Position numbers and translations under genes: made by a program
Assembly: GCA_002699025.1 (NCBI GenBank)
Contig: PABA01000186.1
Location: 1-57,040 of the forward strand
Length of the DNA stretch: 57,040 bases
From: Sandaracinus sp.
GTDB lineage: Bacteria > Myxococcota_A > Polyangia > Polyangiales > Houyiibacteriaceae
Direction: 5' to 3'
In this document: one piece after another, positions 5,766-50,420 of the stretch
Layout: each line of letters begins with the position of its first letter
How positions within the stretch are numbered: the stretch's first letter is position 1
Notes under the pieces: generated by a model
What the model was told of the DNA's origin: nothing
The model's database searches: none
What the model saw: the letters and a program-made list of their open reading frames with translations, nothing else

Positions 5766-8333
5766 ATGCGCGCCATCGGCCTCTCGCTTCTCCTTCTCCT
5801 CCTCGCGGCACCGGCAGCCCGCGCCCAGACGGTGGTCATCGACCCGGGCCACGGCGGCTCGGACCCCGGCGCGGTCGGCTGCGGCCTCGAGGAAGAGGAC
5901 GTCGTCCTCGACATCGCCCGCCGCACCCGCGACCTCCTCCGCGCCGACGGCGTCGACGCCATCCTCACCCGCGAGGACGATCGGAGCGTCGGCCTCTCCG
6001 CCCGCGCCTCCTTCGCCAACTCCCGGGGCGCCAGCCGCTTCGTCTCCATCCACGCCAACGCCAACGCGGGCACGCCGGCCACCGGCACCGAGACCTTCGT
6101 CTACACCTCGGCCTCCTCCACCAGCCGCACCATGGGCCAGCAGGTGCAGGACGAGATGATCGCCGCCTGGGGCCTCCGGAACCGCGGCCTGAAGTCGGCC
6201 AACTTCGCCGTCCTCCGCCTCACCTCCATGCCCGCCGCCCTCTCCGAGACGGGCTTCATCAACCGCTGCGATCCGGACGCCGCCCTCCTCGGCTCGGCCT
6301 CTGCCCGCCAGGAGATGGCCGTCGCCCACTACCGCGCCATCCTCCGCAGCCTCGGCCGCACCCCCGGCGACCCGGGCCCCGCCCCCGAGCCCGAGCCCGA
6401 GCCGGAGCCCGAGCCCGAGCCGAGCGGCGGCCGCCTCATCGGCGTCGTCTTCGAGGACACCGGCGCCGGCCTCGAGGACACGAGCCGCCGCCTCCCGGAG
6501 GCCACCGCCCGCATCGTCGAGACCGGCACCACCAGCGACCTCGACGGCGAGGCCTTCTTCCGCTTCGCCGCCCCCGCCGGCACCTACACCATCGAGGCCT
6601 CGGCCCCCGGCTACACCACGGCCCGCCGCACCTGCTCGGTCGGCACCGGCGACACCTGGTGCTCGGTCGGCCTCGAGCCCTCCGTCGCCGCCCCCGGCAC
6701 CGTCCGGGGCGTCGCCTTCCGCGACCGCGGCGTGGGCTTCGCCGACACCAGCGAGCGCCTCGCCGGCGCGACCGTCCGCGTCGCGGAGACCGGCGACACG
6801 GTCCGCACGGACGACGGCGGCAACTTCGCCCTCAGCCTCCCGGCCGGCGGCTACACCCTCGAGCTCTCGGCCGCGGGCCACACCTCCGCCAGCCGCCGCT
6901 GCGTCGTCGACGCCGGCGCCGTCGCCTGGTGCTCCCTCGGCCTCGTCCGCGAGGCCGGCGGCGGCGCGCTCCAGGGCGTCGTCTTCGAGGACGGCGCGCC
7001 CTCCCGCCGCGTCGTCGGCGCGACGGTGCGCATCGTCGAGAACGGCGCGACCGAGCTGAGCGCCGCGGGCTCGGGCTACTGGCGCTTCGAGCTCCCCGCC
7101 GGCACCTGGACCGTCGAGGTCGAGGGCGAGGGCCTCAGCCCGGCGAGCCGCCGCTGCACGGTCACCCGCGGCGGCGAGACCTGGTGCTCGGTCGGCGTCC
7201 GCTTCGGCGGCCGGGGCGGCGCCGTGATCGACCCGGGCCTCGAGGAGCCCGAGGTGGTCGAGGGGGTCGACGACGACGCCGCGGCCGCGGACCCGGCCCT
7301 CGCCGGGGGCCTCTCCAGCGGCTGCAGCGCCGGCGGACCCGCGCCGACGGGCGGCGCCCTGCTGTTGCTCCTCGTCCTCTTCGGCCTCCGCTCGCGCCGC
7401 CGTCGCGCGCTCGCTCCGGCCCCCCTCGCCGCGCTCGCGCTCGTCGGCCTCGTCGGCTGCGCCGGCGCCGAGCCCGGCGCGGAGCTCGGCCTCGAGCCGG
7501 GCGCGGAGCTCGACCTCGCCCCGGCGCTCGACGAGCCCCTCGCGCTCGGCGAGACGGTCCAGCTCGTCGACGAGGTCGCGCCCTTCGCCGAGGTCCGCGC
7601 CGCCCGCGTGATCTCCGCCGGCGGCTACGCCGACGCGACCCTCTCGCCGGACGGGACCCGCCTCGCCCTCAGCCACGACACCTTCGCCGGCGTCAGCGTC
7701 CAGCCCGCGGACGGGAGCGCGCTCCCCCAGGTGCTCCGCGAAGGCCGCGCCCTCGGCATCGCCCCCGTCTGGCGCCCGGACGGCCGCGCCCTCGGCCTCC
7801 GCGCCCCCGGCCAGACGGAGACCGCCGTGCCCCTCCTGAACGTCGACCTCGGCGGCCGGGACATCGCCCCCGAGCCGAGCGACGCCCTCCGCGCGCGCGT
7901 CGACGACGCCGGCCACGTCCTCGTCGGCGTCGGCGCCCGCACCGAGCGCCTCGGCCCGCCGGGCGACCGCTACTTCGCCCCGCGCGTCGGTCCCGAAGAG
8001 CGCTTCGTCGCCTTCCAGGGCCTCAGCTCGGGCCTCTACCTCCACGACCTCGACCGCGGCGTCACCTACCACCTCGCCCAGGGCGGCGGTCACGCGCGCT
8101 TCGATCCGGCGGGGCGCTGGCTGGTCTTCGAGCGCCTCGAGGACGACGGCCACGTCTTCACCGCCGGCGACGTGATGATCGTCGACCTCCAGCCCGAGGT
8201 GCCCGCCATGGCGCCGCTCGTGGCGACGGACGCCCTCGAGCGCGCGCCGGACCTCGCCGGCGGCCGGCTCAGCTACCTCCGCGGCAACGAGGGCGTCGAG
8301 GTGGTCGTCGCCGAGCTCGCCTTCACCCGCTGA
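5766..8333 (+). CDS. N-acetylmuramoyl-L-alanine amidase with three repeat domains and MYXO-CTERM, continuous in frame with a lipoprotein-like beta-propeller
   Basis: This is an 855-residue open frame with a signal peptide (1-20) ending ARAQ. Residues 21-205 are an Amidase_3 domain with the zinc site: VIDPGHGG (His 29), Glu about 43, SIHANAN (His 96) and the catalytic SETGF Glu. It should cleave the stem peptide from N-acetylmuramic acid in the periplasm. A Pro-Glu linker follows, then three related modules of about 80 residues (about 233-490), each ending in two Cys within a WCSVGL-type motif and resembling CarboxypepD_reg/SdrD-like beta-sandwiches. Around Cys 520 there is a MYXO-CTERM-like tail: SSGCSAGG, a hydrophobic helix, then RSRRRR. 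The frame does not stop: a second hydrophobic helix ends in lipobox LVGC (Cys 565), and about 270 residues with LSPDGTRLALS-type propeller blades follow. No in-frame ATG or GTG lies near the junction; a TTG at 7365 is the only alternative start. It could be a sequencing frameshift that fused two genes, or a true polyprotein. Confidence 0.85.
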   Translation: MRAIGLSLLLLLLAAPAARAQTVVIDPGHGGSDPGAVGCGLEEEDVVLDIARRTRDLLRADGVDAILTREDDRSVGLSARASFANSRGASRFVSIHANANAGTPATGTETFVYTSASSTSRTMGQQVQDEMIAAWGLRNRGLKSANFAVLRLTSMPAALSETGFINRCDPDAALLGSASARQEMAVAHYRAILRSLGRTPGDPGPAPEPEPEPEPEPEPSGGRLIGVVFEDTGAGLEDTSRRLPEATARIVETGTTSDLDGEAFFRFAAPAGTYTIEASAPGYTTARRTCSVGTGDTWCSVGLEPSVAAPGTVRGVAFRDRGVGFADTSERLAGATVRVAETGDTVRTDDGGNFALSLPAGGYTLELSAAGHTSASRRCVVDAGAVAWCSLGLVREAGGGALQGVVFEDGAPSRRVVGATVRIVENGATELSAAGSGYWRFELPAGTWTVEVEGEGLSPASRRCTVTRGGETWCSVGVRFGGRGGAVIDPGLEEPEVVEGVDDDAAAADPALAGGLSSGCSAGGPAPTGGALLLLLVLFGLRSRRRRALAPAPLAALALVGLVGCAGAEPGAELGLEPGAELDLAPALDEPLALGETVQLVDEVAPFAEVRAARVISAGGYADATLSPDGTRLALSHDTFAGVSVQPADGSALPQVLREGRALGIAPVWRPDGRALGLRAPGQTETAVPLLNVDLGGRDIAPEPSDALRARVDDAGHVLVGVGARTERLGPPGDRYFAPRVGPEERFVAFQGLSSGLYLHDLDRGVTYHLAQGGGHARFDPAGRWLVFERLEDDGHVFTAGDVMIVDLQPEVPAMAPLVATDALERAPDLAGGRLSYLRGNEGVEVVVAELAFTR

Positions 8334-8348
8334 GCCTCCCGGGCTCGC

Positions 8349-8401
8349 GAGCGGCGCCCCGAGCCGAGCCTCCAGCAGGGGGGCGGTGGGGGGCGCCGCT
8401 C
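8349..8401. terminator. inverted repeat between convergent genes (possible bidirectional terminator)
   Basis: GAGCGGCGCCCC (8349-8360) pairs perfectly with GGGGCGCCGCTC (8390-8401), giving a 12-bp stem with a 29-base loop. It sits between the stop of the amidase gene and the stop of the hybrid kinase gene, which face each other. There is no T-run, so a Rho-independent role is plausible but unproven. Confidence 0.45.
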
Positions 8402-8403
8402 CC

Positions 8404-10833
8404 TCAGGCCTCGGCCACGGCGCGGTCTTCTTCGCCCACCCCGGTCATCCGGTCGATGCGCACCCGGATCTCCTCCACGAGGTCCTCCCGCCCGTGCCCG
8501 TTCTTCCGCACGACCCGCGCCATCCCCGACTCGAGCCGCGCCCGGTCCTCCGCGTCCAGGTCCATCGCCGTGAACACCAGCACGGGCAAGTCCCGGAAGC
8601 GCGCGTCCCCCCGCAGCCGCTCGAGCACCTCGAACCCATCCATCTCCGGCATCATCAGGTCGAGCACCACCAGCCCCGGCCGCTGCGCCTCCACCGCCTC
8701 CAGCGCCTCCGCGCCCCCGGCCGCCGTCCGCACCGCGTAGCCCTCGCGCTCGAGCGTCCGCTCCACCACGTCGCGGATCGCCGGGTCGTCGTCGACCACC
8801 AGCACCTCGCCCTCCGCCGTCTGCCGCCGCAGCACGGCCCGCAGCCGGTCCCAGTCGACGGGCTTGGTCAGGTAGTCGGTCGCGCCGAGCGCCAGCCCCT
8901 TGCTCCGATCCTCGATCATCGACACCAGCACCACCGGCACGTCCGCCAGGCTCGGATGCCGCTTCAGCTGCGCGAGGAGCTCCCAGCCCGACGTGTCCGG
9001 CAGCTGCACGTCCAGCACGATCGCGTCGGGCCTCCGCGCCTCCCCGGCCGCCAGCCCGTCGCGCCCGTTCGCCGCCACCGTCACCGCGTAGCCCTCGCGG
9101 ATCAGCGTCCGCGCCATCAGCTCGCGCACGGAGCGGTCGTCGTCGATCACGAGCACGAGCCCCCGCGGCGGCCCCTCCGGCTCCGTGCTCTTCGGCCCCT
9201 CCTCGGGCAGGCTCGAGCGCCGCGCCGTGTGCCCCGGGAGGCGCACGCAGAAGGTCGACCCCTCGCCCGGCACGCTCTCGACCACGATCTGCCCGCCGAG
9301 GAGCTCGCAGAACTCCTTCGAGAGCGAGAGGCCGAGCCCCGTGCCGCCATACTTCCGTGTCGTCGAGGCGTCGGCCTGCATGAAGGGCGTGAAGAGCCGC
9401 GCCAGCTGGTCGCCGGTCATGCCGATGCCCGTGTCCGCGACCTCGAAGAGCACGTCGTCGTCCTCGCGCCAGACGCGCAGCGTGATCTCCCCCTCGCTCG
9501 TGAACTTCGCGGCGTTGCTGAGCAGGTTGAAGAGGATCTGCCGCGTCCGCATCGCGTCGCCGTGCATCTCGCCGACCTCGGCGTCCACGTCGCGCACGAG
9601 CCGGTTGCCGCCCTTCTGCACGAGCGGCGCGACCGTGTCCGCCACCTCGTCCACGAGCGCCTCCACGTCGAAGTCCTCGTAGAAGAGCTCGATGCGCCCC
9701 GCCTCCACCTTCGAGAGATCGAGGATGTCGTTGATCAACGCCAGGAGGTGCTCGCCGGCGCTCTTGATCTTCTCGAGGTCCTCCGCGAAGTCCACGCCCG
9801 CGTCCCCGAGCAGCTCCGCGTCCTCGATGAGCATCTCGCTGTAGCCGAGGATCGCGTTCATCGGCGTGCGCAGCTCGTGGCTCATGTTCGCCAGGAACTG
9901 GCTCTTCACCTCGGTCGCCGACTCGGCCTCCTGGAGCGCCTCGGCGAGCTTCTTCTCCGACTCGCGCTGCGCCGCGAGCTGCGCCGCGATCCGCTGGCGC
10001 GCCCCCTCGAGGGCCGAGGCGAGCTGGCGCACCTCGGCCGTCGTCCCCCGCTCGCGGATCGGCGTCTCGTGGTCCCCCTGGCCGAAGCGGCGCGCCGCGC
10101 TCGCGAGGCGCTGGAGCGACTGCGTGAGCCGGAAGCTCGCGAGGATCAGCGCGCAGACGAGGATGACGAGGAGCAGGCCCGCGAAGAGCACCTGCTGCCC
10201 CGTATGCCACTCGGCCTCCTCGAGCATGCGGTCGAGGGGCGCGTCCACCTGCAGCACGCCCACCACCACGCCCCGGTGGTCGCGGAGCGGGGCGAAGGCC
10301 GAGATCCACGTGCCGTGGGCGTCCGCGTAGGGCCGCTTGGTCGCCACCTCGCCCTGGAGCGCGGCGGCCATCTCGGGAAGGTAGTCGGCCGCGTGGCGGA
10401 AGTAGGGCACGTCGCTGCTCGTCGCGACGACGGCCATGGCCCCCTCGGCCCGCCGGTTCGGCGCCGCGCGCACCCGGCTCGCGTGGCGCTCGCGGAGCAC
10501 CAGCGTCTCCACCGGCGCGATGAGCTCGTTCTCCTTGGCGGCCTTCGCGAGCTGCGCGTGGATGAGCTGGAGCTGATAGGGCGCCTCGGCCCAGCGCACG
10601 AAAGCGTCCCGGTCGGGCGTACGCGTCTCGGCCCGCCGATGGGCCGAGCCGTCCACCTCGAGGGCGAGGGTCGCCGCGATGGCCCGCACCCGCGCGAGCT
10701 CCCCCTGCTCGATGCGCTCGCGGAGGCGCTCGTTCGATTGCCAGAGGAGCGCGCCGGTCGCGACCGCGAGGAAGACGGCCGTGACCAGCACGAGCCGGCC
10801 CATCAGCGTGCGGGGGGTGAGTCGGAAGGCCAT
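8404..10833 (-). CDS. membrane hybrid histidine kinase with two receiver domains
   Basis: This is a protein of 809 residues. A transmembrane helix near the N-terminus (LVLVTAVFLAVATGALL), an extracytoplasmic sensor of about 150 residues and a second helix (VLFAGLLLVILVCALILASF) are followed by a HAMP-like segment and a coiled coil. HisKA has the H-box FLANMSHELRTPMNAILGYS. HATPase_c has NLLSNAAKF, VADTGIGM and GGTGLGLSLS. Two receivers follow, with phospho-acceptor segments IVLDVQLPD and VVLDLMMPEMDG. It should autophosphorylate on His and pass phosphate internally to its own receivers or outward to the divergently encoded receivers at 10959 and 11425. ATG at 10833 is chosen because it starts the basic stretch before the first helix. 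Input signal is unknown. Confidence 0.92.
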   Translation of the reverse strand: MAFRLTPRTLMGRLVLVTAVFLAVATGALLWQSNERLRERIEQGELARVRAIAATLALEVDGSAHRRAETRTPDRDAFVRWAEAPYQLQLIHAQLAKAAKENELIAPVETLVLRERHASRVRAAPNRRAEGAMAVVATSSDVPYFRHAADYLPEMAAALQGEVATKRPYADAHGTWISAFAPLRDHRGVVVGVLQVDAPLDRMLEEAEWHTGQQVLFAGLLLVILVCALILASFRLTQSLQRLASAARRFGQGDHETPIRERGTTAEVRQLASALEGARQRIAAQLAAQRESEKKLAEALQEAESATEVKSQFLANMSHELRTPMNAILGYSEMLIEDAELLGDAGVDFAEDLEKIKSAGEHLLALINDILDLSKVEAGRIELFYEDFDVEALVDEVADTVAPLVQKGGNRLVRDVDAEVGEMHGDAMRTRQILFNLLSNAAKFTSEGEITLRVWREDDDVLFEVADTGIGMTGDQLARLFTPFMQADASTTRKYGGTGLGLSLSKEFCELLGGQIVVESVPGEGSTFCVRLPGHTARRSSLPEEGPKSTEPEGPPRGLVLVIDDDRSVRELMARTLIREGYAVTVAANGRDGLAAGEARRPDAIVLDVQLPDTSGWELLAQLKRHPSLADVPVVLVSMIEDRSKGLALGATDYLTKPVDWDRLRAVLRRQTAEGEVLVVDDDPAIRDVVERTLEREGYAVRTAAGGAEALEAVEAQRPGLVVLDLMMPEMDGFEVLERLRGDARFRDLPVLVFTAMDLDAEDRARLESGMARVVRKNGHGREDLVEEIRVRIDRMTGVGEEDRAVAEA

Positions 10834-26110: not shown

Positions 26111-29100
26111 TCAGCGCTCTCCGGCGGGGAGGCGCGGCGCGTCGCCGGCGGGGAGCGCGGCCTCGCGGAAGCCGGGCATGAAGAGCCGGAGCGTGGCCTC
26201 GAGGTCGCGGACGCGCTGCGCCTCGAAAAAGCGCGTCGCGGAGCGCTCCTGGCTCGCCGAGCCGAAGCCGAGCTGCACGAGGCGGAGGCGCGCCGCCTCG
26301 GCGACCAGCTCGTGGCCGTGGAGCTCGGCCCGCACGGCGCACTCTTCGAGCGCGGCCCGGCTCCCCGCGAGGTCGCCGAGCCGATGGCGGGCGCCGGCGA
26401 GGAGCGCCTGGCCGAAGATGCGCGCGTAGGAGAGCGGGCGCCGGAGGAGGTTCTTGGCGAGCTTGAGCGCCCGCTTGGCCTCGCCGGGCACCCCCGCGTC
26501 GGCCCGCGCGAGGTGCAGGCGCCCGAGCAGCCAGACGAGCTCGGCGCCCCACGTCACCACGAGCCCGAACTGCGTGCGCCGATAGCGCCGCATCACGGCG
26601 ACGTGCTCGGCGAGCTCGGCGGCGGAGCGGTCGTCGTAGAGCGCCTCCTCCGCCTCCGCGCGGGCGAGGTACCAGCCGTTCGCGCCGGTGCGCACGAGGG
26701 GGCTCTCGAGGTCGAGCTGCTCGAGGTCGCGCCGGGAGGCTTCGAGGCCGTCCTGGAGGAGGATCGGCAGGCCGAAGGCGACCGTGCTCAGCGTCCAGAG
26801 GTAGCGGTTGCCGCGCCAGGCCGCGTCCCGCCGGGCCCGGTCCAGCTCGCTGCGGAGCTCGCTCAGCTGCCCCATGTAGCGCAGGCAGCCCATCGCGAAG
26901 ACCGAGACCTGGCTGATGTTGGCGACGTGCGCCACGGGCACGGACGACCAGAGCTCGAGGCCGCGGCGGAACTCGGTCAGGGCGCGCTCGAAGTGCCCGG
27001 TGAAGTAGTGGCGAAGGCCGTTCCCCACGGTGAGCCAGGCCTGATGGTCCGGGTTGGGGCTCGTGCCGAAGACGGGCGTGGCCAGGCGGACCGCATGCTG
27101 CGCCTGCTCCACGTTGCTCGCGTTGAAGGTGAGGCAGACGCCCGCTTCGCGGGAGAGGCAGAGGGCGAGGGTCTCGGTGTCGTCCTCGCGGAGGGCGTCG
27201 ACGAGCGTCCGCGCGTGGAGCTCGTTGGCGAGGATCGGGTCGAGGATCGGGAGGTGCACGAAGGCCGCCGTGTAGAGCCGGTAGATGGGCGACTCGGTGG
27301 CCTTCATGGAGTCGGTGAGCTCGGCGTCGAGCCGCTCCGGGAGGCCCCGAAGGCGGATCTGCAGGCGGCGGCGGAGCAGGGAGAAGAGGGCGCCGAGCTT
27401 CGTCCGCGGGAGGCGCACGCCGACGGCGACGCAGAGGCTGCGGAGCAGCTCCATGGCCTGCTCGGTGTGCCCGCTCATGGCGAGCTGCTCGAGGGCGCGC
27501 GTGCGCAGCGTCAGCGCCTCGTCCGGGTCGGTCGTGTCGGCGGCGTCGGCCGCCTCGAGGAAGCCCTTCGCCGCCTCGAGCGCGCCCTGGCCGGCGTTGG
27601 CGAGCGCGTCGGAGAGGGCCAGCCGGAGCCGGAGCTGCTCCGAGGGCGTGTGGCGTCCGAGGGCGAGGGCCATGCGGTAGAGCTCGCTCGCCCGGTCGAA
27701 GGCCAGCGAGCGCGTGGCTCGCTCCGCCGCGGCCTCGGCGGCTCGGGCGGCGCGCTCCCGATGGCCGGCCTCGGCGAGGTGCCGGACCACGTCCCGGTCG
27801 TCCTCGCTCTCGGCCGCGCCCTCGCCCAGGGCCGCGGCCAGGGCGGCGTGGTGCCGCGCGCGCTCGTCGGGCTCGAGGGCGTCGATGACCGCCTCGCGGA
27901 TCCGATCGTGGAAGGGCTCGAGGCGCGCGGCGTCCGTCGGCCCGCTCCGCACGAGCTGCTCTCCCTCGAGCTCGGAGAGGAGCTCGCTGACGCGGCCCGT
28001 CTCGAGGCCCGTCGCGGCGCCGAGCGTGCGAAGCGCCAGGGGCACGCCGGAGACGCAGATCACCTCGAGGAGCCGCCGGGCCGAGGGCTCGAGGCGCGCG
28101 ACGCGCGTCCGGATCACGTCGTCGAGGCGGAGCGAGCCCGGCCTCTCGCTCTTCGACGCGCGCCGGATGAGCTGCTGCAGGAACATCGGGTGGCCGCCGC
28201 TCTCCTCGACCACGCCGGCGAGCTCCCCCTCGGCGACCTCCTGGCCGTAGCGGACGCCGAGCTCGCGGGCGAGGGCGAGCGTCTCACTGCTCGCGAGGGG
28301 CTCGAGGGGGAGGGCGCGGGCGTGCACGCCGGGCGGGGTCTCGTCCCGGCTCGGACGCTCCGTGGTCACGAGGAGGAGCGGCGGGGCGTCGTGGACGGCG
28401 AGGAGGTCTTCGAGGAGGAGCCGGCTGTCGCGGTCGGCCCAGTGGAAGTCGTCGATCCAGACGACGACGGGACCCTCGCGGCCGAGGTTGCGGAGGAGCT
28501 CCCGGAGCGCGTCGAAGGCGCGCCGACGAAGCCGCTCCGGGTTCTCGACCTTCTCGCTCGGCGGCACCAGGTCGGCGATGGCGGGCACGCGCTGGAGCAC
28601 CGGGAAGACGCGGGCGAGGTCGTGGACGTTCTTCGGGAGGAGCCAGGCGGCGTGGGCGGGGCTGGTGAGGCCTTCGATGCGCCGGAGCTGGCGGCTGATC
28701 GCGTCGACGACGCCGTCCCAGGCCTTGTAGGGCACCAGCTCGTGGGCGTAGCAGCGGCCCTCGAGGAGGACGAGCTCGGGGACGGCTTCGGCCAGCTCGT
28801 CCAGGAAGCGGCGCACGAGGGCGGTCTTCCCGACGCCCGACTCGCCGAGGACCCGGGCCATGACCGGCTTGCCGCGGCGGCCGTCGTCGAAGGCGCGGCG
28901 CAGCGCGTGGATCTCCCGGTCGCGGCCGACGAAGGGGCTGTCGTCGACCGGGAGGGTGACGCTGGCGGAGCGGAGCTTCTGTCCCTGGGCGCTCGCGATC
29001 TCGCGGAGGAGCTCGGCGCCCCCGCGCTCGGCGGGGTCGCGGCGCAGCAGGCCCACGCACGCCCGTTCGAGGTCGGGCGCGATGCCGACGGTGAGCTCGG

Positions 29101-29878
29101 AGGGCGAGGGCGGATCCTCGGCGACCTTCTGCGCGAGGATCTGCAAGGGCGGTCCGTCGAAGGGGAGGCAGCCGGTGAGCGCCTCGAAGAGCATCACGCC
29201 GACCGCGTACCAATCGGCGGCCGCCTCCGCCGGCAGGCCCTTCGCTTGCTCCGGGGACATGTAGGCGGCCGTGCCCTCGACGTGCTCACCCGAGCCCGTG
29301 TCGTGCGCGTGCGTGTCGCGCGTCAGGCCGAAGTCGAGGACGACGAGGCGCCCCGTGTCCGCCTCGACGACGACGTTCGAGGGCTTCACGTCCCGGTGCA
29401 CGCGGCCGGCGGCGTGGAGGGCGGCGAGCCCCTCGCCCAGCTGGGCGAGCACCCCGCGGAGGCGCGCTTCGTGGAAGTGGGGCGCCTTGCGGCGGCGGCG
29501 CCGGAAGCCGCTGTCGCCGTCCTCGGGCGGCCCCGGGGGGAGGGTGACGCGCTCGCTGTCGATGACGTGGGAGGCGCCCCGGACCCAGTGGAGGAAGTCC
29601 ATGCCCTCCACGAGCTCCATGGAGAAGAACCACTCGTCGCTGCCGCCGAAGAGCTCGCCCAGGCGCACGAGGTGGCGGTGGCGGAGGTCGGCGAGGGCGC
29701 GGAACTCGGCCTTCAGGCGGTAGAAGGCCTGGGGGCTGCGATGGCGCACGGCCTTGAGCGCGACCTCGACGCCGAGCGAGCGATCGAAGGCCCGGTAGAC
29801 GGTGCCCATGCCGCCGCGGCCGAGGACGCCACGGACCTCGAAGCGGTCGCGCAAGACGTGCCCACTCGCCAACCCCAT
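26111..29878 (-). CDS. Ser/Thr protein kinase fused to AAA-type ATPase and TPR-like helical region
   Basis: This is a 1255-residue protein. Kinase at about 12-290: GRGGMGTVYRA loop, Lys 42, HRDVKPSN 161-168, DFG 182-184, MSPEQ. A signalling NTPase follows: FVGRDREIHALRRAF then P-loop GESGVGKT 345-352 and Walker B VVVWIDDFHWAD, as in the AAA_16/STAND class. Residues about 700-1255 are Ala/Leu/Arg-rich helical repeats, probably TPR. Such kinase-ATPase-TPR proteins are typical of myxobacteria and Actinobacteria and are thought to be scaffolded signal integrators. All kinase catalytic residues are present. No transmembrane segment is seen. ATG at 29878 opens MGLASGHVLRDRFEV, the standard kinase N-terminus. 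Confidence 0.93.
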   Translation of the reverse strand: MGLASGHVLRDRFEVRGVLGRGGMGTVYRAFDRSLGVEVALKAVRHRSPQAFYRLKAEFRALADLRHRHLVRLGELFGGSDEWFFSMELVEGMDFLHWVRGASHVIDSERVTLPPGPPEDGDSGFRRRRRKAPHFHEARLRGVLAQLGEGLAALHAAGRVHRDVKPSNVVVEADTGRLVVLDFGLTRDTHAHDTGSGEHVEGTAAYMSPEQAKGLPAEAAADWYAVGVMLFEALTGCLPFDGPPLQILAQKVAEDPPSPSELTVGIAPDLERACVGLLRRDPAERGGAELLREIASAQGQKLRSASVTLPVDDSPFVGRDREIHALRRAFDDGRRGKPVMARVLGESGVGKTALVRRFLDELAEAVPELVLLEGRCYAHELVPYKAWDGVVDAISRQLRRIEGLTSPAHAAWLLPKNVHDLARVFPVLQRVPAIADLVPPSEKVENPERLRRRAFDALRELLRNLGREGPVVVWIDDFHWADRDSRLLLEDLLAVHDAPPLLLVTTERPSRDETPPGVHARALPLEPLASSETLALARELGVRYGQEVAEGELAGVVEESGGHPMFLQQLIRRASKSERPGSLRLDDVIRTRVARLEPSARRLLEVICVSGVPLALRTLGAATGLETGRVSELLSELEGEQLVRSGPTDAARLEPFHDRIREAVIDALEPDERARHHAALAAALGEGAAESEDDRDVVRHLAEAGHRERAARAAEAAAERATRSLAFDRASELYRMALALGRHTPSEQLRLRLALSDALANAGQGALEAAKGFLEAADAADTTDPDEALTLRTRALEQLAMSGHTEQAMELLRSLCVAVGVRLPRTKLGALFSLLRRRLQIRLRGLPERLDAELTDSMKATESPIYRLYTAAFVHLPILDPILANELHARTLVDALREDDTETLALCLSREAGVCLTFNASNVEQAQHAVRLATPVFGTSPNPDHQAWLTVGNGLRHYFTGHFERALTEFRRGLELWSSVPVAHVANISQVSVFAMGCLRYMGQLSELRSELDRARRDAAWRGNRYLWTLSTVAFGLPILLQDGLEASRRDLEQLDLESPLVRTGANGWYLARAEAEEALYDDRSAAELAEHVAVMRRYRRTQFGLVVTWGAELVWLLGRLHLARADAGVPGEAKRALKLAKNLLRRPLSYARIFGQALLAGARHRLGDLAGSRAALEECAVRAELHGHELVAEAARLRLVQLGFGSASQERSATRFFEAQRVRDLEATLRLFMPGFREAALPAGDAPRLPAGER

Positions 29879-35810: not shown

Positions 35811-36974
35811 ATGACCCCGAAGATCCCCATCAACGTCGGCACCATCGGTCACGTCGACCACGGCAAGACCACCCTCACCGCCGCCCTCTGCTCGGTCCTC
35901 GCCCAGCGCCACGGCGGCGAGGCGCGCTCCTTCGCGCAGATCGATCGCGCCCCCGAGGAGAAGCGGCGCGGCATCACCATCGTCGCCAGCCACGTGCGCT
36001 ACGACACGGAGACGCGCCGCTACGCCCACGTCGACTGCCCCGGTCACGCCGACTTCGTGAAGAACATGATCACCGGCGCCGCCCAGATGGACGGCGCGAT
36101 CCTGCTCGTCGACGGTTCCCAGGGGCCGCAGGAGCAGACCCGCGAGCACGTCGTCCTGGCCCGCCAGGTCGGCGTCGAGCACCTGGTCGTGTTCGTGAAC
36201 AAAGCGGACGTCGCCGACCCCGAGCTCCTCGAGCTGGTCGAGCTGGAGACCCAGGAGCTCCTCGAGAGCTACGGCTACGAGGCGCCCTTCGTCGTCGGCT
36301 CGGCGCTGAAGGCCCTCGAGGCGGCGGAGGCCGGGCGCTGGGACGACCCGGCGCTCGCATGCATCGACGCCCTCGCGGCGGCTCTCGACGAGGCGATCCC
36401 GGCGCCCGAGCGCGACCTCGGCGCGCCCTTCCTCATGCCCATCGAGGGCGTCCACGGGGTGAAGGGGCTCGGCACGGTGATCACCGGCTGCGTCGCCCGC
36501 GGCGTGCTCGCGCCCGGCGAGGCGATCGAGATCATCGGCGCCGGGCTCGGCCCGGTCGTCGTGAGGGGCGTGCAGGCCTTCCACCGGGACATCCCGCGGG
36601 CGGAGGCCGGCCTGAACGTCGGCCTGCTCTTGCGGAACGTCGACCGCGGCTCCGTCCAGCGAGGCCAGGTCGCCGTGCTCCCGGGCTCCGTCGCGCCCCG
36701 CGCCGGCGGCGAGGCCGAGCTCTTCCTGCTCGGCGGGGACGAGGGAGGACGGCACACGCCGGTCCGGAGCGGCTACATGCCCCAGCTCTGGTTCGGCGCC
36801 ACCGACGTCACGGCCACGCTCGACGTGGGCGAGCGCGCGCTCCTCGAGCCCGGCGCCCGCGGCACGGTCGCCTTCGACCTGCAGCGGCCCGTGGCCCTCG
36901 AGGTCGGCATGCGCTTCGCCGTGCGCGAGGGCGGCCGCACCGTCGGCGCGGGCGTCGTCTCGCGGGTGCGCTGA
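35811..36974 (+). CDS. divergent EF-Tu paralogue (translational GTPase)
   Basis: This is a 387-residue three-domain EF-Tu-type GTPase. G1 GHVDHGKT at 13-20, switch I RRGITI, G3 DCPGHADF with His 79 (the catalytic His of EF-Tu), G4 NKAD at 130-133 and G5 GSALKAL are intact. The C-terminal [12 protein letters not shown] is perfectly EF-Tu-like. Differences from typical bacterial EF-Tu include PEEKRRGIT (usually PEEKARGIT), HADF (usually HADY), [14 protein letters not shown] where FSISGRGTVVTG is normal, and [14 protein letters not shown] where GYRPQFYFRTTDVT is normal. The tRNA-binding face may therefore be altered. It stands alone, without fusA, rpsG or rpsL. It could be a second EF-Tu or a specialised factor. 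A good ribosome binding site precedes the ATG. Confidence 0.88.
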
Positions 36975-43697: not shown

Positions 43698-45347
43698 TTA
43701 GTAACGCGTCGGCTCGGTGAAGGTCGTGTCCTCCACCAGGTACTGCACGCGCCGACCGTCCCGGTTCAGCACGCAGTCGCCGCTCGCGAGCAGCCGCCTC
43801 AGCGCCAGCTGCGCGGTCCGTACGCTCACGTCCAGCTCCTGCGCCGCCTGCCGCGTCGTGATGCCCCCATGCCGCGCGATCACCCGCAGGAGCCGATCCT
43901 CCACGTGCTCCACGCAGCGCGGGTCGGGGAGCACCAGCACGCCATGCGGCTCGAGGCACATGGTCCCGCTCTTCCGGTGCACGGTCGCCGCCCCCTCGAG
44001 CCGCGCCCGCATGCGATGCACGAGCACGTCGAGGATCCCCGCGTGGAGCGCGGACACGAACTCGAACTCGTAGGCCTTCTCGAAGAGCGCCGAGTCCGCC
44101 AGCCCCTCCTCGCCCGCGAGCGCGAGCGCCGCCACCGCCGTGTCGACCCGCCCGCGCCGCAGCCGCGTCCGCTGGAGCCGCACGATCTCGCCCTCTGCCG
44201 CCAGCAGCGGCGTCGCCACCCGCAGCAGCCGCCGCGGCCGCCGCCCGGGCTGGCAGACCACGTGCGCGATCGTCGAATCCGCGGGCCCGTCCGGAGGCCC
44301 GACGATCCCGTGCAGGCCCGCCGGCGTCTCGTCCACCGCGCCGAGCGCCCACTCGCGCACGTCCTCGGGGCAGTCGTCCGGGTCGAGCGCCGGGTCGAGC
44401 GCCGCCGCCAGCGCCGCCGCCTCCTGCGCCATGTCGACGAAGCGCGCCGCTTCGGCCCGCGCCCCGTCGCGCCCGGCCTCGAAGCCCTCGCGGTCGCCGT
44501 CCGAGCTCGCCGCCAACCAGCGCAGGAGCGCCCGCGCGGCCCGCGTCGCCGGCTTGTCCGGCGCGTCCAGGAGCGCCTGCTCCACCTCCGCCGGCTTGGT
44601 GTCCTTCCGCGGCCGCCAGCCCGCGAGGATCCGCTCCCAGCGCAGCCAACCCTGCCAGAGCCCCGGCGCGATGGGCGCGATGGCGCTCAGGATCCGCGTC
44701 GCCAGATGCGGCCGGCCGGCGCGGCGCCGCACGCGCGCGAGCACGATGCTCGCGAGAAAGCGCTCCGCCCGGAGCCCCTCCGTGCGCGCCATGCGCGAGG
44801 CCCGCCGGCTCAGCGCCTTCGCCTCCTCCGCGTCCCGCGAGGTCAGCGCCGCCATGGCCCGCATGAGCGTCGCGTCGATCACCATCGAGGCGTCCTGCGC
44901 CGCCGAGCCCTCCGAGTAGAGCGCCTTGCCCACCTCCTCGAGCCCCTCGACCTCGCCGGCCATGAGCCGCAGCCAGGCGTCCGCGCGGCGCAGGGCGAGC
45001 TCCGCCTCCGGCAGCCCGGGCGCGAGCTTCGCGTGCACGGCCCGCGTCGCCGCCAGGCCCTCCGCGTCCCAGGCGACGAGCGCCGCGCGCTCCAGGTGCA
45101 CCAGGGCGAGGTTCGCGGGGCGGCGCACCTCGGGGCCCTCCCCGGCGAAGGCGGCGAGCTCGTCGGGCGTGGGGCCCTTCCCGGCGTTCGGGTCCACGAG
45201 GAGCCGGGCCGCCGCGATCGCCGCGCGCCACGCCCTCGCCTCGGCGCCCTCTGCCTCCGCGAGCGCCTCGCTCGTGCTCTCCAGGCCACGGAGCGCGCCG
45301 CGGCACACCGCTTCGTGGATCTCGAGGCCGGTGCTCTTCACGTCCAT
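43698..45347 (-). CDS. TPR-like protein with C-terminal winged-helix domain
   Basis: This is a 549-residue protein. The first 350 residues are Ala/Leu/Arg-rich helical repeats, consistent with TPR or similar superhelix. The last 100 contain EDRLLRVIARHGGITTRQAA, QELDVSVRTAQLALRRLLAS, then a DCVLNRDGRRVQYLVEDTTF wing: a winged helix DNA-binding domain of the DeoR/MarR-like fold. The protein probably binds DNA and is regulated by a partner bound by the helical region. It is divergent from the Ser/Thr kinase gene, with 109 bp between starts, so this kinase could act on it. ATG at 45347 (MDVKSTG) is the first start after GC-rich sequence; a longer upstream reading is unlikely. Confidence 0.8.
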   Translation of the reverse strand: MDVKSTGLEIHEAVCRGALRGLESTSEALAEAEGAEARAWRAAIAAARLLVDPNAGKGPTPDELAAFAGEGPEVRRPANLALVHLERAALVAWDAEGLAATRAVHAKLAPGLPEAELALRRADAWLRLMAGEVEGLEEVGKALYSEGSAAQDASMVIDATLMRAMAALTSRDAEEAKALSRRASRMARTEGLRAERFLASIVLARVRRRAGRPHLATRILSAIAPIAPGLWQGWLRWERILAGWRPRKDTKPAEVEQALLDAPDKPATRAARALLRWLAASSDGDREGFEAGRDGARAEAARFVDMAQEAAALAAALDPALDPDDCPEDVREWALGAVDETPAGLHGIVGPPDGPADSTIAHVVCQPGRRPRRLLRVATPLLAAEGEIVRLQRTRLRRGRVDTAVAALALAGEEGLADSALFEKAYEFEFVSALHAGILDVLVHRMRARLEGAATVHRKSGTMCLEPHGVLVLPDPRCVEHVEDRLLRVIARHGGITTRQAAQELDVSVRTAQLALRRLLASGDCVLNRDGRRVQYLVEDTTFTEPTRY

Positions 45348-45456
45348 CGCGTTCGTTCCTGGGTCCGGAGGCGGCGAGGGCGCCCGACCCTCTTCCTCCG
45401 TAGAGCGCTTCGCCGGGATGTCACCATCGCGCCCGCCACGCGATACAGTATGCGGC

Positions 45457-47070
45457 ATGGCCCCGGGGCGTGGATACCGGCACCTGTGCGAGATCGCGGC
45501 CGGCGGCATGGGCCGGGTGTACGTGGCGGTCCGCCGCGACGACCCGGAGATGCGCCTCTTCGCCGTCAAGCGCCTCCACCCGCACCTCCGCGACGACGCC
45601 CGCGCCCGCCGCACGCTCACGGCGGAGGCGGAGGTCGCGGGCGGCGTCGAGCATCGGAACGTGCTGCGGGTCTTGGAGAGCGGCGCGGACGTCGAGGGGC
45701 CCTTCCTCGCCATGGAGTACGTCGAGGGCTGCTCCCTCGCGGAGCTCGTCGGCGCCGTGAAGCGCATGGACGAAGAGGTGCCGCTCCAGGTGGCCCTCGA
45801 CATCGCGCAGCAGATGGCCGCCGGGCTGCACGCGATCCACGAGCAGGTCGGCGGGCTCCTCGTCGTCCACCGGGACGTCTCGCCGCACAACGTCCTCGTC
45901 GACTTCGAGGGGCGCGTCCGCGTCGCGGACTTCGGCATCGCCAAGTCGCTGAACCCGGAGCAGACGGCCCACGACACCTCGACGGGCGTGCTCAAGGGCA
46001 AGGTCGGCTACATGTCGCCGGAGCAGCTCCGCTTCGAGAAGCCGGACCGGCGCTCGGACCTCTTCGCGCTCGGCGTCGTGCTCTGGGAGCTCCTCGCCGG
46101 TCGGCGCCTCTACCACGGCTCGGATGGCACGGAGGGCGCGCGCCGCATCCTGCACGAGCCCCCGCCGGACATCGGCGACGAGCGGGAGGACGCGCCGCCC
46201 GAGGTCGTCCAGCTCCTCTTCGAGCTGCTCGCGAAGCAGCCGCAGACCCGGCCCCCGAGCGCCGCCGTGGTCGCCGATCGGCTGGAGGTGAGCCTGGAGG
46301 TGCTCGGCCAGGCGGAGGGGCGCGTGCACCTCGGCGACTACACGGCCTCGTTCTTCGAGCGGGAGCGGGCGGCCCGGCGGAAGATGATCGACGCGGCGCT
46401 CGAGCGCTCGCACGCCCTCGACCAGGCCGAGACCCAGTTCGGCGAGACGGCGCGCGAGCCGGCCACGCGCGAGTGGCACGTGAAGGGCGTCGCCATCTCC
46501 GCGACCGTCGAGTACCTGCAGACGGTCTACGGCGCGGAGGGCTTCGCGCGGGTCGTCGAGATCTGCCCGGAGGACGTGCGCGAGACGCTCGCCGGGCCCG
46601 TGCTCGTCTCCGGCTGGTACGACGGACGCGTGATGGTCGCCCTGACCGAGGCCGCCCAGCGGCTCTTCTCCACCGAGGACGAGACCAAGCTCGCGGCGCG
46701 CATCGGCGCGGCCGGCGCGGACTACGCCTTCGGCGAGGGCGGGCCCTACGAGGTCTTTCGGCAGCAGGGGCTCCGCGAGGGCGTCGCGCCCTTCCTGCAC
46801 ACGGCCGGCGAGATCTACCGGCTCTACTACGACGTGGGCTCGTGGATCGTGGAGGAGGTCACGGAGACGGCGGCGGTCATGCGCATCGTCGACGGGACGG
46901 TCTTCCCGGAGGCCATCGCCGACCGGATCCGTGGCTACCTGCGGCGGGGCTTCGAGCTCATCGGCTGCGAGGAGGTGCACGTCACCTACCTCACGGACGG
47001 GAGCGACCTGATCATGTCGGCGCGCTGGCGGAACCCCGGCGGGCGCCCCTCGCGGCCGCCGCCACTCTGA
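45457..47070 (+). CDS. Hanks-type Ser/Thr kinase with C-terminal V4R/heme-NO-binding-like domain
   Basis: This is a 537-residue protein. Kinase at about 8-300: IAAGGMGRVYVA loop, VKRLHPHL (invariant Lys), HRDVSPHNVLVDF and DFGIAKSL, then MSPEQLR. The HRDVS loop has Ser in place of the usual Lys of HRDxK, a variant common among myxobacterial kinases. The C-terminal 190 residues contain GVAISATVEYLQTVYGAEGF, YEVFRQQGLREGVAPFLHTA and EEVHVTYLTDGSDLI, which look like the V4R/heme-NO-binding-like sensory fold of the TIGR02265 class. That assignment is tentative. No transmembrane helix is seen. ATG at 45457 is chosen because MAPGRGYRHLCEIAAGG is the canonical opening. Confidence 0.88.
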   Translation: MAPGRGYRHLCEIAAGGMGRVYVAVRRDDPEMRLFAVKRLHPHLRDDARARRTLTAEAEVAGGVEHRNVLRVLESGADVEGPFLAMEYVEGCSLAELVGAVKRMDEEVPLQVALDIAQQMAAGLHAIHEQVGGLLVVHRDVSPHNVLVDFEGRVRVADFGIAKSLNPEQTAHDTSTGVLKGKVGYMSPEQLRFEKPDRRSDLFALGVVLWELLAGRRLYHGSDGTEGARRILHEPPPDIGDEREDAPPEVVQLLFELLAKQPQTRPPSAAVVADRLEVSLEVLGQAEGRVHLGDYTASFFERERAARRKMIDAALERSHALDQAETQFGETAREPATREWHVKGVAISATVEYLQTVYGAEGFARVVEICPEDVRETLAGPVLVSGWYDGRVMVALTEAAQRLFSTEDETKLAARIGAAGADYAFGEGGPYEVFRQQGLREGVAPFLHTAGEIYRLYYDVGSWIVEEVTETAAVMRIVDGTVFPEAIADRIRGYLRRGFELIGCEEVHVTYLTDGSDLIMSARWRNPGGRPSRPPPL

Positions 47071-47221: not shown

Positions 47222-48040
47222 ATGCGGACCTGGAGTGCGGCGGTGCTGCTGGTGTTGCTCGCGGTCGCGCCCGCGTGGGCGGATCGGGGCGTCGTGCGTC
47301 TGACCTCGGGGCAGAGGGTCTCCGGGGAGATCATCGCCTACGAGCCGGGGCGGCGCGTCGTGATTCGGGGCGCGGATGGGCGCGCGTACGAGTACCCGGC
47401 CTCGGCGATCGTCGAGGTGCGCATCGAGGGAAGCGGTACGTCGGGGGTCGCGCCCGCGCCGCCTGCGCCGAACGCGGCCCCGGTTCCGCGAGCGGCGAGC
47501 GGCGGGCCGGCCGCGCCTCCCTCCGGCGGCCCGGACGTGCCGGCGCCCCCCGGCGACTACGCGGGCCCGGCTCCGCAGCTCGGCGCACCGACGGGCCCGC
47601 CGCCGCCGAGCCCGGAGGCGCAGGCCGCGCGACGCGAGCAGCTCCTCGAGCAGCGGCGCACCCTGCAGGCGCAGGAGGAGCCCTCGCTCACGATGCCCAT
47701 CGCCTTCCTCGCCACCGGCGTCGCGCTCCTCGTCACCGGCGCCGTCTTCATCGAGGCCGGGGACTTCGACGACCACGCCGACGGGCGGGACTACTGGGGC
47801 GACGGTCGCTGCGATCCGGACTTCGACGACGACTGTCGCTGGTCCGGCGCGATGCTCCAGGGCTTTCTGACGATGCTCGCCGGGGGCGTCTTCGCCGGCA
47901 TCGGCGCGGGCACCTTCATCCCGCGGATGATCCAGCGCGGGAAGCGCCGAAAGCAGCTCCGGCGCATCGATCGCGAGCTCCGGCTGAACGGCTGGGCCGG
48001 GCCCGAGTCCGCGGGGCTCCGGCTGCAGCTGCGCTTCTGA
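47222..48040 (+). CDS. secreted or membrane protein with small beta-barrel domain
   Basis: This is a 272-residue protein. Signal peptide 1-20 ends AWA. Residues about 22-70 have the pattern VRLTSGQRVSGEI then GRRVVIRGADGRAYEYPAS, typical of an SH3/Sm-like barrel. A Pro/Ala-rich linker follows (about 75-140). Two hydrophobic helices flank a Cys-containing Asp-rich loop (CDPDFDDDCRW), and the C-terminus is basic (RGKRRKQLRRIDREL). I do not recognise a family; similar low-complexity proteins occur in myxobacteria. No function can be assigned. Confidence 0.75.
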   Translation: MRTWSAAVLLVLLAVAPAWADRGVVRLTSGQRVSGEIIAYEPGRRVVIRGADGRAYEYPASAIVEVRIEGSGTSGVAPAPPAPNAAPVPRAASGGPAAPPSGGPDVPAPPGDYAGPAPQLGAPTGPPPPSPEAQAARREQLLEQRRTLQAQEEPSLTMPIAFLATGVALLVTGAVFIEAGDFDDHADGRDYWGDGRCDPDFDDDCRWSGAMLQGFLTMLAGGVFAGIGAGTFIPRMIQRGKRRKQLRRIDRELRLNGWAGPESAGLRLQLRF

Positions 48041-48218: not shown

Positions 48219-48605
48219 ATGCCGACTTGGGCCGAAGTTCAGGAATACGCGCGCTCGAAGTACAAGCTCGCCGACGATCGCGACAACAGCTTCAAGCTGG
48301 TGTTCGAGTACCAGAACAAGCGGCTCCAGGCCGTGATCGTCTCCCGCTTCGAGGCGCTCAACCGCGACTGGTGCGATTTCGCCTCGGCCTGTTGCAAGCT
48401 CGACCAGATGAACCCGGAGGTCGCGCTACGGAAGAACTTCCAGTTCGCCGTGGGCGCCCTCTGCCTGGATCGGGACACGTACATCGTCCGCTACAGCGTG
48501 CAGATGGCGACCATGGACATGGAGGAGTTCGAGCTCCCGCTCCACGTCGTCGCCAGCACGGCGGACAAGCTCGAGCAGGAGTTCGCGGCCTCGGACCGCT
48601 TCTGA
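48219..48605 (+). CDS. YbjN/CesT-like small chaperone-type protein
   Basis: This is a 128-residue protein. It starts MPTWAEVQEYARSKYKL, then SFKLVFEYQNKRLQAVIVSR, ALRKNFQFAVGALCLDRDTY and ADKLEQEFAASDRF. The pattern of alternating beta strands and helices, with the conserved N before a GAL strand and a C-terminal AD helix, matches the YbjN/CesT (type III secretion chaperone-like) fold. In that fold such proteins bind partner polypeptides. GAGGGGG is a good ribosome binding site nine bases before ATG at 48219. It sits upstream of the CHAT-like gene, 203 bp away on the same strand. Confidence 0.7.
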   Translation: MPTWAEVQEYARSKYKLADDRDNSFKLVFEYQNKRLQAVIVSRFEALNRDWCDFASACCKLDQMNPEVALRKNFQFAVGALCLDRDTYIVRYSVQMATMDMEEFELPLHVVASTADKLEQEFAASDRF

Positions 48606-48679
48606 GCTCGAGAGAGCGCTGATTCGACACGTGGGCGGGGCCGGAGACGGACCCGCCCACGCGCGTTTCGGGCACATCC

Positions 48680-48727
48680 GTTCGGGAGCAGGCGTTCGGG
48701 AGCAGGCGTTCGGGAGCAGGCGTTCGG
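48680..48727. repeat. 14-bp tandem repeat, 3.4 copies
   Basis: The unit GTTCGGGAGCAGGC is repeated perfectly at 48680, 48694 and 48708, then truncated after GTTCGG. It lies between the chaperone-like and CHAT-like genes and differs in sequence from the other 14-bp arrays. Confidence 0.95.
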
Positions 48728-48808
48728 CATGCGGTCTTCTCGGATCGCGGCCTGTGCCGCTATGCTCGCGCCGCGGCGTCCGCCGCGCAGGGAAGGGGAG
48801 GGGAGACC

Positions 48809-50281
48809 ATGACCGGTTGGAGCAAGAAGGGCGGAGGCTTCGGGGGCGACGCGACGCCGCCGGAAGCGCCCGACGCGCCGAGACCCGAGAAGCCGGCCCC
48901 GGCCGCGGCCCCGCCTCCGGCGGCGAGCGCGCCGGAGCCGACCGCGCCCGAGAGCGGCGCCGGAAAGGAAGCGGGAGCCATGAGCAGCTGGAGCAAGAAG
49001 GGCGAGGGGTTCGGGGGCAGCGAGGCCGGCGGGGAGAAGGCCGAGGCGCCGCCCGCCGAGGGCGCGAAGGCCGAGGCGGCGACGCCGGATGCCGCCGCCG
49101 AGCCCGACGCGAAGCCCGCGGCGGACGCGAAGGCAGAAGAGAAGAAGGAGCCGGTGAAGCCGGAGGGCTGGGGCAAGCGCAAGGACGGCACGAAGGCCTG
49201 GTCCGAGCGGGCGCGGGCCGACGACCCGGACAAGCGCAAGGTCCTCGCGCCGACGGGGACCGGCATCGGCGACGGGAAGGTCTTCCACTTCCTCTTCGGC
49301 TTGAAGATCCACTCGCCGAACGACCGGCGCCTCTTCGGCGAGGCGCGCGAGCACGTGGACGATGACGTCGAGGCGCTGCGCGCGGCGGGCTACACGGTCG
49401 TGGTCGACGAGCAGGCCGTCCACGCGGACTTCATCGGCGCCGTCTACGGCGACGCGGAGGACGTGAAGGGGCTCGCGCCGGCGGGCGTGTTCTGGCTCGC
49501 CCACGGCCACGACGACGGCGCCATCGAGACCTGCGACGGGGGCGTGGTGCAGCCGACGGACGTGGACCCGGAGAAGGTCCACGCGGGGCTCAAGCTCGTG
49601 GTCTTCGCGGCCTGCTACACGGGCTCTTGCTCGCGCACCTGGCGCGAGCGGCTCGGCGGTCGCGCCCTCGTGGTCGGCTGGGGCCGGCCCGTGACCATCG
49701 ACCGCGCCGTCGAGTTCCTCACGCCCGACGATCGCACCGAGACCGATCTCGACGACCTGCTCCGCCGCTACCTCCTGGCGCCCACGGACGTGCCCAAGGA
49801 GGTGGAGATGCGCTACTCGCCGCTCGGCGCGGCGGCGGCGGCCGGCCGCTCGGGTGACCTGCCGAAGCGCCTCGAGGGGACCGTCTCGATCCTCCACGCG
49901 AAGGTGCTCCCCGCGAAGGACGGGGACGCGGCCGTGACCATCGACGTGCCCATGGGCGACAAGCGCTGGCACCGCGCGAAGATCTTCATCGTCGACGGCA
50001 ACGAGCCCTTCGCCGAGGGCGAGCTGCTCCTCGGCGTGGAGTGCGACGTGGGCGAGCTCTCGAACGTCGTCGATCCGCCGATGCTGCTCAGCGGGATCCC
50101 GCACAACCGCTACGCGCGCGTGCAGCTCGTGGAGAGCGAGAAGGAGATGCCGCGCATCGTGACCCAGGGCTTCATGCCGCTGGCGCGCGTGCGCGACATG
50201 GACGCTGCGTCGCTGATCTTCCAGGTTTGCCAGTACGCGGACGTGCTCGAGCACCGCATCTTCGGCGGCGACATGGGCTGA
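48809..50281 (+). CDS. caspase-like (CHAT-type) protein with repeated disordered N-terminus
   Basis: This is a 490-residue protein. Residues 1-145 are Pro/Ala/Glu-rich and disordered, with the motif WSKKGxGFGG at 4-13 and 61-70, then WGKRKDGTKAWSERA at about 121-135. Residues about 150-310 look like a CHAT/caspase-like hydrolase: GVFWLAHGHDDG (His 232 before Gly, as in the clan CD HG motif) and LKLVVFAACYTGSC (Cys 269 after two small residues), followed by GGRALVVGWGRPVT. The C-terminal 130 residues form an unrecognised beta-rich domain. A processed or regulated protease is likely. GGAGGGGAGACC precedes the ATG at 48809. It is probably linked to the chaperone-like gene upstream. Confidence 0.75.
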   Translation: MTGWSKKGGGFGGDATPPEAPDAPRPEKPAPAAAPPPAASAPEPTAPESGAGKEAGAMSSWSKKGEGFGGSEAGGEKAEAPPAEGAKAEAATPDAAAEPDAKPAADAKAEEKKEPVKPEGWGKRKDGTKAWSERARADDPDKRKVLAPTGTGIGDGKVFHFLFGLKIHSPNDRRLFGEAREHVDDDVEALRAAGYTVVVDEQAVHADFIGAVYGDAEDVKGLAPAGVFWLAHGHDDGAIETCDGGVVQPTDVDPEKVHAGLKLVVFAACYTGSCSRTWRERLGGRALVVGWGRPVTIDRAVEFLTPDDRTETDLDDLLRRYLLAPTDVPKEVEMRYSPLGAAAAAGRSGDLPKRLEGTVSILHAKVLPAKDGDAAVTIDVPMGDKRWHRAKIFIVDGNEPFAEGELLLGVECDVGELSNVVDPPMLLSGIPHNRYARVQLVESEKEMPRIVTQGFMPLARVRDMDAASLIFQVCQYADVLEHRIFGGDMG

Positions 50282-50283
50282 GG

Positions 50284-50420
50284 CGCTTCGAGCCCGAGCG
50301 GCGGCGAGCTGCGGCCAGGCCCGAGGCTCGGGCTCGGTCTCGAAGCTGGGGCTCGGGCTCGAAGCCAGGGTTTGGGCTCGGCTTCGAAGCTGGGGCTCGA
50401 AGCCTGGGCTGCAGCCCGCC
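50284..50420. repeat. degenerate GGCTCGAAGC/GGGCTCGG repeats
   Basis: Imperfect units of about 20-24 bp contain TCGAAGCTGGGGCTCG (for example at 50337 and 50383) and run between the CHAT-like gene and the oxidoreductase. They resemble the GAGCCCGAGC-type repeats at 42858-42985 in the opposite orientation. Confidence 0.65.

Follow-up and report, generated by a model that had tools for sequence, protein, structure and literature searches.

Our computational analysis points to a two-gene module composed of a putative caspase-like cysteine protease, with a predicted His232/Cys269 dyad, and a stand-alone partner of the YbjN/CesT fold. In the window, i.e. the whole 57,040-nt stretch of Sandaracinus sp. 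DNA that was analysed, both genes lie on the forward strand. The partner gene (48219..48605; ATG 48219, stop 48605) encodes a small YbjN/CesT-fold protein of 128 aa, and the protease gene (48809..50281; ATG 48809, stop 50281) encodes a CHAT/caspase-like protein of 490 aa with a C-terminal YbjN/CesT-fold domain. The positions that an earlier note on this DNA had assigned to both genes, to His232 and to Cys269 were confirmed from the sequence. A perfect 14-bp tandem repeat (48679-48727; 3.5 copies of CGTTCGGGAGCAGG) is located between the two genes, and degenerate GGCTCG-type repeats are located 3' of the protease gene (50318-50410).

The AF2 model of the protease monomer was confident across most of residues 141-290 and 341-420, and the pLDDT of the caspase-like core was mostly 73-96. 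Residues 155-330 (49271..49798, forward strand) matched the SAVED-CHAT structure 8tl0 with a VIA Z of 10.3 (153 aligned, 3.7 A) and caspases, including caspase-3, with a Z of ca. 7.8; structure prediction thus gave the CHAT/caspase-like fold that had previously been called by eye. In the model, His232 (49502..49504, HGxxDG setting) directly follows the strand at 223-230, and Cys269 (49613..49615, ACYTGS setting) follows the strand at 263-267. A His and a Cys after these successive core strands occupy the usual clan CD positions. The proposal of a clan CD-like pair also held when homologues were aligned, since both residues were invariant in 16 of 16 aligned homologues of the class, Minicystis included; the dyad was present in the aligned actinobacterial proteins as well. 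dN/dS in closer pairs was 0.11-0.33 for the caspase-like domain and 0.06-0.25 for the C-terminal domain and, judged by these ratios, both domains are under purifying selection in such pairs. No Pfam or PADLOC model matched the protease, its NCBIfam matches were spurious, and comparison of the family with solved structures by sequence gave chance-level matches only. The window protein did not match the Pfam caspase/CHAT profiles, and the best hit among 16 members was Peptidase_C25 (E 0.24, one member); a match of this kind is a matter of detection threshold and does not define clan CD.

The dyad also bears on whether the protein might be an inactive pseudo-protease acting as a scaffold or signalling module. 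The homologue in G463 (L108:4078-5883), which carries a long insert between the domains, has lost both residues (His to Gln, Cys to Ser) yet keeps the recognisable sequence of both domains, as such a module might. However, the dyad and its HGxxDG and CYxG settings were kept in every aligned partner-bearing homologue, and we therefore regard this explanation as extremely improbable. The G463 homologue, for which no partner gene was found, represents a natural dead relative.

The AF2 model of the small protein had a pLDDT of 91.7 and matched 2plg, ExsC, SycT, CesT, YbjN (6vu7) and AmyR with VIA Z values of 13.4 to 9.5, so that its designation as YbjN/CesT-like, made by eye from the sequence, is borne out by the predicted fold (Z 10-13). 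When 42 members of the small family were searched against Pfam, CesT_Tir_1 was weakly matched by five, YbjN by three and CesT by two (best E 0.0019-0.018); the window's own small protein matched none of these profiles, and its matches to models in general were weak. Among PADLOC candidates, PDC-M13A/B and PDC-M10A showed weak similarity to the family (E 1.9e-6 at best). At a cutoff of E 1e-10, none of 57 genomes of the order, the window's own among them, yielded PDC-M13B. The name PDC-M13 is thus not supported for the system.

A second YbjN/CesT-fold domain, which the earlier note missed, is located at the C-terminus of the protease. Residues 347-486 (49847..50266, forward strand) matched BacA, VecA, CesT, YbjN, AmyR and other type III chaperones with VIA Z values of 9-12.6, and hhalign matched this domain to the small partner family (89%, E 2e-6). 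In addition, a single-domain protein of G503 matched both YbjN-fold profiles (E 1.3e-16 and 1.8e-8). The hhalign match and this intermediate indicate that the C-terminus of the protease is homologous to the product of the neighbouring gene. The domain also occurs alone, without a caspase-like part, at L009 (G102) and at L109:6691-7107 (G503), the latter encoding the protein that links the two YbjN-fold families.

The window genome carries one copy of the protease gene, the distribution of which is patchy: the protease was found in 5 of 33 genomes of the window's family, as 16 full or partial typical relatives in 317 genomes of the class, and in 4 of 298 Micromonosporales genomes. Named relatives are a Nannocystaceae MAG, Micromonospora gifhornensis and, more distantly, Minicystis rosea. 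Identity to the window protein over the conserved part was 70-75% within the family, ca. 47-58% across the class and 45% in Micromonospora. Two order-level matches were treated as chance, one because its open frame reads dehydrogenase-like (G111) and the other because it contains a stop (G124).

The neighbourhood proved to be conserved in relatives. The small gene was located within 4 kb of the gene for a typical protease, meaning the two-domain proteins of Myxococcota and Micromonosporales with the Minicystis and G463 outliers kept apart, in 20 of 20 genomes (16 of the class and 4 Micromonosporales) and at less than 1 kb in 17. In the window's family the small gene lies upstream in tandem with a gap of 9-334 bp, in other Myxococcota the two genes are convergent, and in actinobacteria they overlap by one base. 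Co-transcription is therefore not a general feature of the pair, as in some genomes the genes converge or lie as much as 3.9 kb from each other. The four Micromonosporales genomes with the protease were the same four, among 298, that carry a close partner (E ca. 1e-48), the next YbjN-like matches having E values of 3e-27 and weaker. A typical protease was never found without the partner in the genomes surveyed, whereas the partner often occurred by itself: it is present in 50 of 183 genomes of the order, as compared to five with both, and in the window's family 31 of 33 genomes have the small gene, 26 of them alone. Being kept alone in these 26 genomes, the partner either has another role as well or outlasts the protease. 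In two genomes lacking the protease (G022 and G024), the oxidoreductase gene known from the window as a flank of the protease gene comes directly after that of the partner. Inter-family distances of the two proteins were correlated (Pearson 0.88, 19 pairs), a correlation that shared descent alone could give. In the partner tree, the label 'with protease' changes approximately seven times, at least three of which are forced by well-supported branches. Where two partner copies are present (G015, G284 and G299), the protease lies beside one, and the other copy is on a long branch.

The excess of the small gene over the protease in the window's family (31 vs 5 of 33) would also fit a functional link without contact, through the same pathway or regulation, with the small protein acting as a stress regulator of the YbjN type. 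Regulation of stress and virulence has been described for E. coli YbjN and AmyR (PMC5398634). We consider this explanation quite unlikely, because the linkage is strict in two phyla with differing layouts, the co-occurrence in Micromonosporales is perfect, and the partner is homologous to the C-terminal domain of the protease itself.

Residues 1-136 of the protease were modelled with low confidence (AF2, pLDDT <50), in agreement with the disordered N-terminus that had been suggested. This region contains WSKKGGGFGG at residues 4-13, WSKKGEGFGG at 61-70 and WGKRKDG at 121-127. The first two belong to duplicated DNA on the forward strand, copy 1 (48782..48889) comprising the ribosome-binding region, the ATG and residues 4-13, and copy 2 (48954..49060) comprising a ribosome-binding-like region, Met58 and residues 61-70; the local alignment of the two scored 44, as compared to 23 for the best of 200 shuffles. 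Since the duplicated stretch spans the ribosome-binding region and the start codon, it is a duplicated gene start and not a motif array. A single such N-terminus is present in the f1 relatives (MKSWGK in G045, MKSWSK in G046 and MSSWTKK in G021), and no WSKKG-type N-terminus was seen in G015, in f14/f29 or in actinobacterial homologues. Within the window's family, the relatives carry it once or not at all. Because copy 2 resembles the single N-terminus of the relatives, Met58 (48980, forward strand), an alternative start of the protease gene, is probably the ancestral one. The suggestion in the earlier note that the WSKKG repeats could be cleavage or recognition sites is not supported, and conserved sites of this kind were rejected, since the repeats are not conserved and represent a local, lineage-specific duplication of the 5' end. 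A SHOCT-like reading, made by eye, of the helical N-terminal segment in f14/f29 was also discarded, there being no SHOCT match in Pfam.

The third motif of the earlier note is part of a conserved W motif (WGKRKDG...W...DDP; residues 118-146; 49160..49246, forward strand), in which the columns P118, W121, K129, W131, R136, DDP, R143 and V145 were invariant or >90% conserved. This motif was found in nearly all aligned class members except Minicystis and in the actinobacterial proteins, and it was mostly of low confidence or unstructured in the monomer model. Only ca. 8 aa precede it in G015, and the actinobacterial homologues are also short there, which argues that the disordered N-terminus is dispensable. 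The homologues of Minicystis and G463 have neither the W motif nor the partner; that of Minicystis rosea (L097, match 8001-9047) is divergent but keeps the dyad, and the partner was not found anywhere in the M. rosea genome. Since the W motif is conserved, disordered alone and absent without the partner, a correlation with two negative cases only, both divergent, it has the features expected of a segment at which a chaperone-fold protein docks and is a candidate for such a role. One member of the class alignment, judged by its N-terminal sequence probably the Minicystis homologue, matched Tudor_2 (E 0.0015).

Each class I type III chaperone binds its specific client in the form of extended chains, an argument from fold extends this to YbjN proteins, and the genes of class IA chaperones adjoin the client gene (PMC5398634). 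In Craspase, the dyad of the CHAT protease is separated until activation (PMC9729208). By combining the client-adjacent class IA genes with the held-inactive dyad of Craspase, we arrive at the proposal, to which we give an even chance, that the small protein most likely serves an intracellular caspase-like protease as its dedicated chaperone, of class IA type, or as its restraint. The small protein would bind the protease, and the partner could hold the otherwise disordered W motif (residues 118-146), hetero-dimerise with the protease's own YbjN-fold domain, or use both sites. It would keep the enzyme in a folded but inactive state; on release by a signal, the enzyme would then act inside the cell. 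The predicted folds, the conserved dyad, the homology between the two YbjN-fold domains and the gene linkage come from computation, whereas we infer the binding, the inhibition, the proteolysis, the signal and the substrate. More tentatively, the pair may form a new type of bacterial caspase control unit in which a CHAT-type protease is gated by two homologous, pairing domains of the YbjN/CesT fold, the one part of the protease and the other a separate protein, in a toxin-antitoxin-like manner; this is conceivable, but we lean towards doubting it. If true, such a gated unit would be a protease/inhibitor module common to Myxococcota and Actinomycetota.

In the case of an exported protease, a possibility raised in the earlier note, the small protein would act as a type III-type chaperone and bring the caspase-like protein to a secretion apparatus. 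The class IA chaperone fold of the small protein, the position of its gene beside that of a protein with a disordered N-terminus, and the single FlhA/SctV-family protein of the window genome (flagellar or secretion type) are consistent with this. However, the genome of M. gifhornensis (G317), which has the pair with the 1-base overlap, gave no hit to FlhA/SctV, the export-gate family, and type III export is thus very unlikely; the dispensability of the disordered N-terminus (G015, actinobacterial homologues) argues in the same direction.

The proposed restraint was also weighed against abortive infection or programmed death, in which phage or stress would unleash the protease and the protease would kill the cell by cleaving an effector. 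Killing of this kind has precedents in Craspase and in gasdermin-linked CHAT proteases. Such a role would agree with a CHAT fold closest to SAVED-CHAT, an effector of type III CRISPR, with the patchy distribution and the jump between phyla, and with the weak similarity of the partner family to the PDC-M13 and PDC-M10 candidates. On the other hand, a scan of ten window proteins yielded no defence gene beyond generic protein kinases, searches of plasmids, phage records and viral contigs gave no copy, neither a gasdermin-like gene nor a sensor gene was seen beside the protease, and the flanking genes are metabolic and differ by lineage. Hence, we consider abortive infection unlikely. The defence or cell-death role raised in the earlier note may still apply, but no defence-island, phage or plasmid association was found here.

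Protein-kinase and HTH-protein genes, which neighbour the pair in G045, G046 and G021, are rearranged in the window (43698-47070). They were rejected as parts of the system, since they are kept in the protease-less relatives G020 and G017 and are arranged differently in the window, where an extra gene of 272 aa (47222-48040) adjoins the pair. Elsewhere in the window, an EF-Tu-like gene (35811-36974, 387 aa), possibly an isolated copy, lies amid metabolic and regulatory genes, and the minus strand encodes a protein of 1255 aa in which a Ser/Thr kinase domain precedes an AAA ATPase domain (26111-29878).

Caspase-like proteases need restraint until they are required. To our knowledge, the known bacterial caspases are under the control of CRISPR complexes, cyclic nucleotides or sensor domains, and few clients of YbjN proteins are known. 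The sole conserved partner here has the chaperone fold of type III effector chaperones and YbjN proteins. The pair thus provides a concrete candidate for a client of YbjN-type proteins and, for bacterial caspases, a candidate mode of restraint that would be new, and it is directly expressible and testable since it is small (two genes, ca. 1.5-2 kb). Each fold was already known; the fusion of protease and chaperone fold and their pairing appear to be undescribed, and no paper mentioning both YbjN and CHAT was found among the open-access papers searched.

Among known anti-phage systems, neither the protease nor the neighbours had a match apart from the generic kinases and the weak PDC-M13/M10 similarity of the partner. 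The protease itself had no PADLOC match, and PDC-M13B was not found in the 57 order genomes at E 1e-10. The pair shares with SAVED-CHAT (8tl0, linked to type III CRISPR) the CHAT/caspase fold over residues 155-330; unlike SAVED-CHAT, it lacks a SAVED sensor domain, CRISPR genes were not seen beside it, and it has a C-terminal YbjN/CesT-fold domain and a separate protein of that fold. With TPR-CHAT/Craspase (type III-E) it shares a caspase-like His-Cys dyad (H585/C627 in Craspase; PMC9729208), which is held inactive there, a likeness in terms of function; TPR and gRAMP are absent here, and the partner is a chaperone-fold protein. The class IA type III chaperones (CesT, SycE, SycT, ExsC and VecA) have the same fold and a gene beside that of a putative client with a disordered N-terminus. 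Their gene adjacency is found here in 20 of 20 genomes within 4 kb, if the protease is the client, but no secretion context is apparent, and the pair occurs in an actinobacterium whose genome gave no FlhA/SctV match. The YbjN family (YbjN 6vu7, Erwinia AmyR 5fr7 and Deinococcus DR1245 4h5b) shares its fold with both the small protein and the C-terminal domain of the protease. While the AmyR/ybjN genes have no adjacent client gene (PMC5398634), the small gene described here adjoins one for a caspase-like protein that itself contains a domain of this fold.
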